Shown one piece after another: positions 43,455-45,662 of a DNA stretch of 45,662 nt (position 1 is its first letter; every line of letters begins with the position of its first letter). Made by a program: the position numbers and the translations under genes. Below the pieces are notes generated by a model. It was given only the letters and a program-made list of their open reading frames with translations, was not told where the DNA came from and ran no database searches. This stretch comes from Kiritimatiellia bacterium (GTDB lineage Bacteria; Verrucomicrobiota; Kiritimatiellia; RFP12; UBA1067): the NCBI GenBank assembly GCA_017418445.1, contig JAFONM010000019.1, positions 1 to 45,662 on the forward strand, in the 5' to 3' direction.

Positions 43455-44024
43455 TCATTGCAGCATCTTCAGGAAGTTCTCGAGCTGCTTCACGCCCTCG
43501 GGAGTGCCTATGGACTCCGGATGGTACTGGACGGACTCGATCGGAAGCGTCCTGTGGCGAAGTCCCATTATCTCTCCGTCCTCGGCCTCGGCCGAAATCT
43601 CGAGGACGTCGGGCAGACTCGCCCGCTCCACGGCGAGCGAATGGTAGCGCATCGCCGAGAACCCCTGGGAGAGCCCCTTGAAGACGCCCTTCCCGTCGTG
43701 CCGTATCCTGCTCGCCTTGCCGTGCATGAGCTTATGCGCGTGAACGATCCTTGCGCCGAACGCCTGGGCGATCGACTGGTGTCCGAGGCAGACCCCGAAA
43801 AGCGGAATCTTCCCGGCAAAGGCCTTCACCGCCTCGAGCGTGACGCCCGCCGTATCCGGATTGCCCGGACCCGGCGAGAAGACGATTCCCGCGGGATTCC
43901 GGGCGGCGATTCCGTCCACGTCGATCTTGTCGTTCCTCACGACCTCCATGTCCGCGCCCAGTCCCCTGAAAGCCTGGACGAGGTTGTAGGTGAAGGAATC
44001 GTAGTTGTCTATCATGAGTATCAT
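43455..44024 (-). CDS. trpG: anthranilate synthase component II (glutamine amidotransferase)
   Basis: The 189-residue class I amidotransferase supplies ammonia to TrpE. Seen are MIDNYDSFTYNLVQ, VFSPGPGNPDTAG, the nucleophile Cys79 in FGVCLGHQSIAQAFG, MRYHSLAV and the closing His-Glu pair in VQYHPESIGTPEG. PabA, used for folate, has the same fold; the trpE neighbour and overlap favour TrpG. ATG 44024 overlaps the trpE stop by ATGA and follows GGAGGAG. Confidence 0.95.
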   Translation of the reverse strand: MILMIDNYDSFTYNLVQAFRGLGADMEVVRNDKIDVDGIAARNPAGIVFSPGPGNPDTAGVTLEAVKAFAGKIPLFGVCLGHQSIAQAFGARIVHAHKLMHGKASRIRHDGKGVFKGLSQGFSAMRYHSLAVERASLPDVLEISAEAEDGEIMGLRHRTLPIESVQYHPESIGTPEGVKQLENFLKMLQ

Positions 44025-45484
44025 AGCTCCTCCTCCGCGAACTTGACGGCCTCGAAGACGGCCTTGGACTTGTTGACTGTTTCCTGGTATTCCTTCTTCG
44101 GATCGGAATCGGCGACGATTCCCGCGCCTGCGCGCATCGTAAGGGTCCGTCCGCTCTTGACGAGCGTCCTTATGACGATCGCGAAGTCGATGTCGCCCGA
44201 ATAGCTGAAGTACCCCGCGGCGCCGCCGTAGATGCCGCGCGGGGATTTCTCGTAGTCGGCAATGAGCTGCATCGCGCGGATCTTCGGGGCGCCGGTGAGC
44301 GTCCCCGCCGGAAACGCCGCCCTGAGAAGATCGAATCCGTCCTTCCCTTCCTCCAGGATTCCCTCCACCTCGCTCACGAGGTGCATCACGTGCGAATAGC
44401 GCTCGACGTGCGCGAAGTCCTCGACCTTCACGCTCCCCGTCTCGGAGACCCGTCCCAGGTCGTTTCGTCCAAGGTCGACGAGCATGACGTGTTCGGCGTT
44501 CTCCTTGACGTCCTCCCTGAGGTCTCGCTCGTTCGCGAGGTCCTCGGCCTCGGTCGCGCCCCTCGCGCGGGTCCCGGCGATCGGACACGTCGTGCACCTG
44601 CGCCCGTTGAGTTTCACGAGCTCCTCCGGCGAAGACCCCACGAGCGAGCGTCCGCCGATGCGCATGAAGAAGTTGTACGGGGAGGGATTGACCATCCGAA
44701 GCGAACGGTAGAGGGCTACGTCATCGACGTCGGACTCCTTGGTGAACTTCTGGGACGGGACGACCTGGATGACCTCGCCGTTAAGTATGTCGCGCTTGCA
44801 CTTCGCGACGATGTCCTCGAATTCCGCCTCGGTCATTTCCGGGACGAACGGTGCGGAATCTCCGGCGACGCGGCGACGCGGCGCGCGGCGCTCCCTGAGG
44901 AAGAACCTCGCGTAGAGCTCGTCTATCCTGTCCGCCGCCTTCGCGAACGCGTCCGGATCGGCCGTGTCCGCCGCGACGATTATCATTACCGTGCGCCTGA
45001 GTCCGTCGAAGACAAGGATGTTCTCGGCAATCATGAACGCCGCCGTGGGAGTCCCCTGCTCGTCGCGGCGCGGAACCTTCGGCTCGAAACGCGAGACGGC
45101 GTCGTAGGAGAGGAACCCGACCGCGCCGCCCTGAAACGGCGGGAGCGATGGATCGGGACGGAATCCGCGCGCATTCACGATTCGTCTCAGAGCGTCCAGG
45201 ATGTCCGCCTCCGGCAGAAGTTCGGTCCCTCCGCCCGCGGAGCGCAGGAAAGTCGCTCCCGACTGCGCGAAGACCCCCGTCTTGGGATCAACGCCGAGGA
45301 ACGAATATCTCGCTCCCGCGCCTCCGACCACGCTCTCGAGGAGGAACGCGTCCGCGTCGCCGGTCCTCGACAGAACCGATACCGGAGTCTCCATGTCCGC
45401 GAGATACTCGCGGTATACGGGAATGACGCCTCCGCCCTTCGCCTTGGCGTCGTATTCCTCCTGCGTCATGCGTCTTGTCATCAT
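44021..45484 (-). CDS. trpE: anthranilate synthase component I
   Basis: TrpE turns chorismate into anthranilate. The 487-residue protein has FLLESV (LLES at 48-51, the usual tryptophan feedback site), GGAVGFLSYD, PSPYNFFMRIGGRSLVGSSPE, CPIAGTRARGATEAED and GTLTGAPKIRAMQLI. ATG 45484 is preferred to the one next to it because AAGGAG lies 8 bases upstream. It lies behind a trp attenuator, so it is controlled both by feedback and by transcription attenuation. Other trp genes are not in the window. Confidence 0.96.
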   Translation of the reverse strand: MMTRRMTQEEYDAKAKGGGVIPVYREYLADMETPVSVLSRTGDADAFLLESVVGGAGARYSFLGVDPKTGVFAQSGATFLRSAGGGTELLPEADILDALRRIVNARGFRPDPSLPPFQGGAVGFLSYDAVSRFEPKVPRRDEQGTPTAAFMIAENILVFDGLRRTVMIIVAADTADPDAFAKAADRIDELYARFFLRERRAPRRRVAGDSAPFVPEMTEAEFEDIVAKCKRDILNGEVIQVVPSQKFTKESDVDDVALYRSLRMVNPSPYNFFMRIGGRSLVGSSPEELVKLNGRRCTTCPIAGTRARGATEAEDLANERDLREDVKENAEHVMLVDLGRNDLGRVSETGSVKVEDFAHVERYSHVMHLVSEVEGILEEGKDGFDLLRAAFPAGTLTGAPKIRAMQLIADYEKSPRGIYGGAAGYFSYSGDIDFAIVIRTLVKSGRTLTMRAGAGIVADSDPKKEYQETVNKSKAVFEAVKFAEEEL

Positions 45485-45514: not shown

Positions 45515-45553
45515 AAAAAAGAAGCGGCCCCTCATCCTTCGGATCGGGGCCGC
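45515..45553 (-). terminator. intrinsic terminator of the trp attenuator
   Basis: The stem GCGGCCCC (45553-45546) with GGGGCCGC (45531-45524) has eight perfect pairs, extended by an inner ATCC/GGAT pairing, and is followed by TTC and six T residues (45520-45515). It ends 30 bases before the trpE start, leaving room for its ribosome binding site. Confidence 0.9.
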
Positions 45554-45587
45554 ACTTCCGTGCCTTCTTGCTCTGGCGTCTGGCTTT

Positions 45588-45662
45588 TCAGCAATGACGG
45601 AGCGCGCCTCCGATCGTAGGACCGAGGCTGCGCCACCAGAATGCTGCAAGGTTCATCGTCAT
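45588..45662 (-). CDS. trpL: trp operon leader peptide with tandem Trp codons
   Basis: A 24-codon frame runs from ATG at the window edge (45662) to TGA 45588-45590: MTMNLAAFWW then RSLGPTIGGALRHC. TGG TGG is at 45638-45633. An alternative start is the second ATG (45656). It is followed by the terminator and by trpE, and its codons contain the pairing segments of an attenuator (see findings). The promoter is outside the window. The size and tandem Trp match known trpL peptides of proteobacteria. Confidence 0.85.
   Translation of the reverse strand: MTMNLAAFWWRSLGPTIGGALRHC

Follow-up and report, generated by a model that had tools for sequence, protein, structure and literature searches.

The window analysed here, a stretch of 45,662 nt, ends shortly beyond the 5' end of a minus-strand trpE gene, and the question raised by this locus is whether the short Trp-rich reading frame and the hairpin that lie ahead of trpE form a transcription attenuator. 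A sequence-only reading had proposed a complete one in which all three RNA states could be recognized. We conclude that trpE-trpG in the window are likely controlled by a trp attenuator in which the ribosome decides on transcription, with a probability of roughly 0.9. As far as sequence comparison can tell, the locus has the Trp codons, the pairing segments and the terminator of such a system, and the segments covary across relatives.

On the minus strand the order of elements is Trp leader ORF, intrinsic terminator, AAGGAG site, trpE and trpG. The leader ORF, MTMNLAAFWWRSLGPTIGGALRHC followed by a stop (45588..45662, minus strand, 24 codons), begins at the contig end and has a second in-frame ATG at 45656. 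Its tandem Trp codons, UGG UGG (TGGTGG in the DNA, 45638-45633, minus strand), are the predicted stalling site. Segment 1, GCGCAGCCTC (45633-45624, minus strand), pairs with the core of segment 2, GAGGCGCGC (45610-45602, minus strand), with one bulged A, and this helix is seen in the minimum-energy fold. The wider form of segment 2, GATCGGAGGCGCGCT (45615-45601, minus strand), is the putative antiterminator strand and lies within the leader codons; it is complementary to segment 3, AGTGCGGCCCCGATC (45556-45542, minus strand), at 13 of 15 positions, one G-U pair included. Segment 3 overlaps the terminator 5' arm (45553-45546), which the antiterminator (segment 2:3) and the terminator thus have in common. 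In our masking model, a ribosome at the leader stop codon, TGA (45590-45588, minus strand), would hide the 3' portion of segment 2. The terminator hairpin (45520..45559, minus strand, -23.5 kcal/mol) has the core arms GCGGCCCC (45553-45546) and GGGGCCGC (45531-45524) and a U tract (T6, 45520-45515); arms and tract were read from the minus-strand sequence, as was the AAGGAG site before trpE (45498-45493). trpE (44021..45484, minus strand) encodes anthranilate synthase component I, with Pfam domains Chorismate_bind and Anth_synt_I_N, and its end is overlapped by trpG (43455..44027, minus strand), a glutamine amidotransferase gene with Pfam domain GATase. The positions given in the sequence-only reading for the Trp codons, segments and terminator 5' arm were all correct, and its bulged-A helix and its count of 13 paired positions over the terminator 5' arm were both reproduced.

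The word complete was too strong for this attenuator, because both the window and its contig (C64) end at position 45662. The first ATG is formed by the last three bases of the contig, so this ATG is only the earliest possible start codon, and the promoter, ribosome-binding site and leader 5' end all lie beyond the contig. The first Trp codon is preceded by 8 codons in the window and mostly by 8-12 in relatives, where the start codon was set by rule. The source genome is a MAG of 1.39 Mb in 77 contigs and is 64.9% complete.

The proposed mechanism is as follows. When charged tRNA-Trp is plentiful, the ribosome would pass UGG UGG and reach UGA, where segment 2 would be covered or bound to segment 1, so that the terminator would form and trpE-trpG would be off. 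When charged tRNA-Trp is scarce, the ribosome would stall on UGG and mask segment 1, leaving segment 2 to capture segment 3 during its transcription, and the polymerase would continue into trpE-trpG.

We folded the window leader with and without ribosome constraints. The minimum-energy fold of the whole leader was -65.9 kcal/mol, compared with -54.5 +/- 4.3 for shuffled sequences, none of 200 of which was as stable, and this unconstrained fold shows both the segment 1:2 hairpin and the terminator. The segment 2:3 duplex has an energy of -31.9, which was equalled by 1 of 200 leader shuffles, and ranks first among 119 own and cross pairings. The ribosome was represented by a mask covering 17 nt upstream and 12 nt downstream of the first base of the A-site codon, and nascent RNA was modelled by folding an RNA that terminates 2 nt beyond the terminator 5' arm. 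In this nascent model segment 3 paired with the leader at 0.82 when the A site was at either one of the Trp codons (0.83 in a repeat) and at 0.70 when it was three codons beyond them; the pairing fell to 0.00 for a ribosome at the stop codon and to 0.02 when the ribosome was left out, the last two values being identical in the repeat. Of 500 shuffles, one matched the value at the Trp codons and none the on/off difference. The full-length window RNA behaved differently at equilibrium: the terminator arm paired with segment 4 at 0.69 and with the leader at 0.09 when the stall was at the first Trp codon, and with a stall at the second Trp codon leader pairing was 0.65 versus 0.17 for the terminator in the ensemble, the best single structure still containing the terminator hairpin. 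Since full-length equilibrium folds mostly retain the terminator, segment 2:3 would have to form first, during transcription, as a kinetic switch. The textbook attenuator switch is kinetic too. The three RNA states of the sequence-only reading can be reproduced by constrained folding of nascent RNA, and in full-length RNA only in part.

Related genomes were searched for TrpE and for Trp codons ahead of its gene. A TrpE match was found in 46 of 58 genomes, 26 of these 46 being of the same genus (own genome included). A leader with tandem or interleaved Trp codons stands before trpE in 22 of the 26, the exceptions being L094, L103 and L104, which are without a Trp leader, and L093, which has one Trp codon. 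Among the remaining same-order genomes 11 of 20 have a Trp leader before trpE, for 33 of 46 overall (own genome included; judged by reading), so the Trp codons are kept in related genomes, as the attenuator reading would have it. In a sample drawn evenly from the phylum, a TrpE match was obtained for 129 of 145 genomes. Of the 28 loci L129-L156, 21 have a Trp leader by reading (five are repeats of same-order loci, and the count omits L138 and L147), and 80 further loci, also judged by reading, yielded 6 with leader and terminator and 3 with a leader without terminator. By this motif scan the candidate attenuator is frequent in certain families; in other families most loci gave no hit. The closest TrpE matches were from the Verrucomicrobia MAG UBA6982 (63% identity) and the Kiritimatiellae MAG RGIG3282 from goat (57%), and the remaining 78 of the 80 TrpE loci kept, a set that may omit very near records, have at most 48% identity. 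By these matches the source genome is likely to belong to the Kiritimatiellae. Short ORFs with WWW or WW also lie upstream of several Bacteroidetes trpE genes, among loci L045-L081 from Bacteroidetes and others. Strong His-run or Leu-run short ORFs were absent from 30 HisG and 30 LeuA loci of the relatives, in a scan that is weak because the loci are short, hisG or leuA is not necessarily the first gene, and the Leu scan also required a terminator.

For comparative analysis of the pairing segments, 63 leader candidates were picked by eye, and the 60 in which a scan detected a terminator enter the counts; L232, L235 and L236 were dropped since the scan gave none. We had excluded L144, in which a second reading frame extends almost to trpE, L138 as doubtful, and L002, L128, L140-L143 and L146 as duplicates of L086, L082 and L112-L116. 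The leader region started at the last Trp codon and included 8 nt beyond the stop codon; the segment 3 region started 6 nt ahead of the terminator and stopped where the terminator 5' arm ends. Over the 60 loci the energies of the own segment 2:3 pairings total -1177.5 kcal/mol versus -860.7 +/- 25.1 when partners are permuted, and none of 20,000 permutations was as good. The same result, 0 of 20,000, was obtained separately for the 26 nearest loci (the 22 same-genus loci plus L003, L086, L092 and L096) and for the 34 others, and two loosely filtered subsets, in which L083, L106 and L109 were misplaced, gave 91 of 20,000 (7 loci) and 0 of 20,000 (19 loci). Relatedness makes permuted partners more alike and should thus count against this result. 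The pairing segments accordingly covary in relatives, as had been anticipated. Locus by locus, the own segment 2:3 pairing was in the best 5% (at most 10 of 200 shuffles) in just 36 of 60, and in L086, L099, L107, L109, L118, L152 and L201 it lay near the middle of the shuffles.

When the nascent model was applied to the 60 loci, mean pairing of segment 3 with the leader was 0.67 with the ribosome at the first Trp codon, 0.43 at the last Trp codon, 0.22 at the stop codon and 0.20 with no ribosome; controls in which the stretch from the Trp codons to the terminator was shuffled gave 0.25 at the first Trp codon, 0.07 at the stop codon and 0.18 with none. Pairing at the first Trp codon exceeded 0.5 in 50 of 60 loci, compared with 8-19 of 60 for any one of the 20 shuffle sets, and a strict pattern, above 0.5 at Trp and below 0.25 both at the stop codon and without a ribosome, was found in 26 of 60 loci versus 1-8 per shuffle set. 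Against expectation, modelled antiterminator pairing of at least 0.4 persists at the stop codon in 20 of 60 loci, and it persists without a ribosome in 15 of 60. The proposal that a stall frees segment 2 while a ribosome at the stop codon allows termination agrees with the nascent model of the window and only in part with its full-length folds, and in the model these 20 loci miss the second half of it. The best segment 2:3 duplex starts ahead of the leader stop codon in 53 of 60 loci, so that the position of segment 2 within the peptide codons, which had been thought worthy of remark, is usual in the lineage.

More elaborate arrangements were also observed. Two or three terminator hairpins lie between leader and trpE in 17 of the 60 loci (L111-L116, L131-L133, L137, L139, L145, L151, L156, L157, L159 and L160). 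A shared or second antiterminator for such tandem terminators was looked for in 12 of the 17 and no consistent pattern emerged: the pairing partner that did better than most shuffles was the leader in L114 and L115 and the stretch after the stop codon in L132, L151 and L156. Two successive Trp-codon leaders before a single trpE, with a terminator-like hairpin after each, occur in L136 (about 420-40 nt upstream of trpE), L159 (about 345-40 nt) and L144 (about 375-50 nt); the two leaders of L136 are near copies of each other, and the hairpins of L144 and of the first leader of L136 were judged by eye.

Other explanations of the window locus have to be weighed against attenuation. The hairpin might terminate an upstream gene, or be a constitutive premature terminator, with the Trp codons present by chance, and the sequence upstream of 45662, which lies beyond the contig, leaves room for such a gene. 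We consider this very unlikely, because, where the contigs of relatives extend further, a promoter-like site before the leader scores above 95% of shuffles in 39 of 57 loci, a terminator stands between leader and trpE in 60 of 63, and both the recurrence of Trp-rich codons in 22 of the 26 same-genus genomes with trpE and the covariation of segments 2 and 3 argue against chance. In the case of trans action, the leader would serve mainly as an sRNA or as a functional peptide released by attenuation, cis attenuation being secondary. The attenuator would indeed yield a terminated leader RNA of about 145 nt, and rnTrpL and peTrpL, as reported for S. meliloti, offer a precedent (PMC7298713); the leader peptides, however, share little across groups beyond the Trp codons, yet motifs recur within groups, which leaves some room for a peptide function, and we give trans action as the main role hardly any weight.

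Tryptophan control could also be exerted through a T-box, TRAP or TrpR and not through the ribosome. TrpR is present in 11 of 16 same-order genomes, three of which (G039, G044 and G050) combine it with a Trp leader, but none of 24 same-genus genomes gave a hit in a search that was positive in 2 of 14 controls; its absence from the source genome taken by itself is weak, as this MAG is 64.9% complete. The T-box (RF00230) was detected in none of 40 genomes and not in the window, with 5 of 14 controls positive, and a search with 4227 Rfam families returned nothing above gathering score in the window or in 8 related loci, three matches being far below their gathering scores. By these searches, which covered TrpR, the T-box and the Rfam families, control of this kind at the window locus is highly improbable. 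Because neither TrpR nor the T-box was found in the same-genus genomes searched, ribosome-mediated attenuation is predicted to be the main tryptophan control in the lineage.

The relatives also bear on the start of the leader RNA. In 26 of the 39 loci with a promoter-like site, the first in-frame start codon is 7-11 nt after the -10 hexamer (for example L085, L091, L111-L116 and L131-L133), a spacing at which transcription would begin no more than a few bases from the start codon, and the leader RNA of those relatives is therefore predicted to be near-leaderless. Leader start codons were assigned by rule, and this rule placed the start after the Trp codons in L134-L136, L148 and L155, of which L134, L148 and L155 are among the 39. 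Mean Shine-Dalgarno pairing in the 39 loci is weaker before the leader (-2.4 kcal/mol) than before trpE (-4.6 kcal/mol).

The trp genes of the source genome are on two contigs, and a second Trp leader precedes the other group. This leader, MTTQFFNSYWWWRRACEAR followed by a stop (L261 7200-7040, minus strand, on contig C65), includes the peptide WWWRRACEAR ending at the stop codon and is followed, after its terminator, by fused trpD-trpC and a trpB-like gene; all of these lie upstream of TrpA, which is on C65 as well. The ATG of this leader follows the -10 site at a distance of 27 nt. For the whole-leader fold the z-score is just -1.07, the terminator prevails in every state of the full-length RNA, and in nascent RNA the pairing with the leader is 0.67 with no ribosome, 0.77 at the Trp codons and 0.05 at the stop codon. 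The core GCGAAGCGAGG stands opposite CCCCGCTTCG in the second leader, and its counterpart GATCGGAGGC opposite GCCCCGATC in the window; when the two leaders are aligned in this way, segments 2 and 3 differ together. The source genome appears to use the attenuator twice, before each of two trp groups on separate contigs.

Split trp genes are seen in other genomes of the genus. trpE and trpA are on different contigs in five of the same-genus genomes searched for both, which may partly reflect assembly. A second Trp leader with terminator is found before trpB-trpA in G008 and G021 and before trpC-trpB-trpA in G005, none was present within 814 nt upstream of trpA in G007, and G004 has a single leader followed by trpE, trpD-trpC, trpB and trpA. 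Pairing specificity between the two attenuators of a genome was considered and is not claimed, since at least one cross pairing equals or beats an own pairing in all four genomes: the own pairing of the window trpE unit (-31.9) is stronger than the crosses (-17.8 and -23.0), and the second leader pairs more strongly with the window segment 3 (-23.0) than within its own unit (-20.0).

In E. coli, trpL has tandem Trp codons at segment 1, exclusive 1:2, 2:3 and 3:4 pairings, and a terminator before trpE. The window is like this attenuator in its tandem Trp codons, exclusive pairings and terminator before trpE, and differs in that its segment 2 is inside the leader ORF, before the stop codon, and in that TrpR was not found in the 24 same-genus genomes examined here. 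The sequence-only reading had remarked that the mechanism is less common outside proteobacteria and some other groups; it is already in print for Actinobacteria, whose trp attenuators have double or triple UGG codons, a GC-rich terminator and an alternative hairpin (PMC1262725). C. diphtheriae is described there as having a candidate attenuator on both trp operons, and so resembles the source genome in having one per trp group, whereas the source genome belongs to another phylum and its groups start with trpEG and trpDC. The S. meliloti report describes a separate trpE(G) unit under attenuation and a trpL RNA that starts at its ATG (PMC7298713), comparable to the near-leaderless starts predicted in relatives of the window; unlike this trpL, the second leader of the source genome has its ATG 27 nt past the -10 site, and the window 5' end is beyond the contig. 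No described trp attenuator for the phylum was present among the open-access matches listed, which were judged by titles and abstracts and lie mostly outside subscription journals.

For the genus we offer a broader reading tentatively, at somewhat less than even odds: that attenuation is the only Trp-specific control, that TrpR has been lost, that the trp genes are split into units in several species with an own attenuator and co-diverged segments for each unit, and that the leader RNA is near-leaderless in most relatives. The mechanism itself is already known, and the added interest lies in its many relatives across the phylum and its likely duplicated use in one genome. The findings widen the range of the classical trp attenuator by a phylum in which the open-access literature searched gave no described case, and the roughly 60 candidate attenuators with covarying segments, together with four genomes that have two, would provide a natural series from which the rules of the switch may be read.
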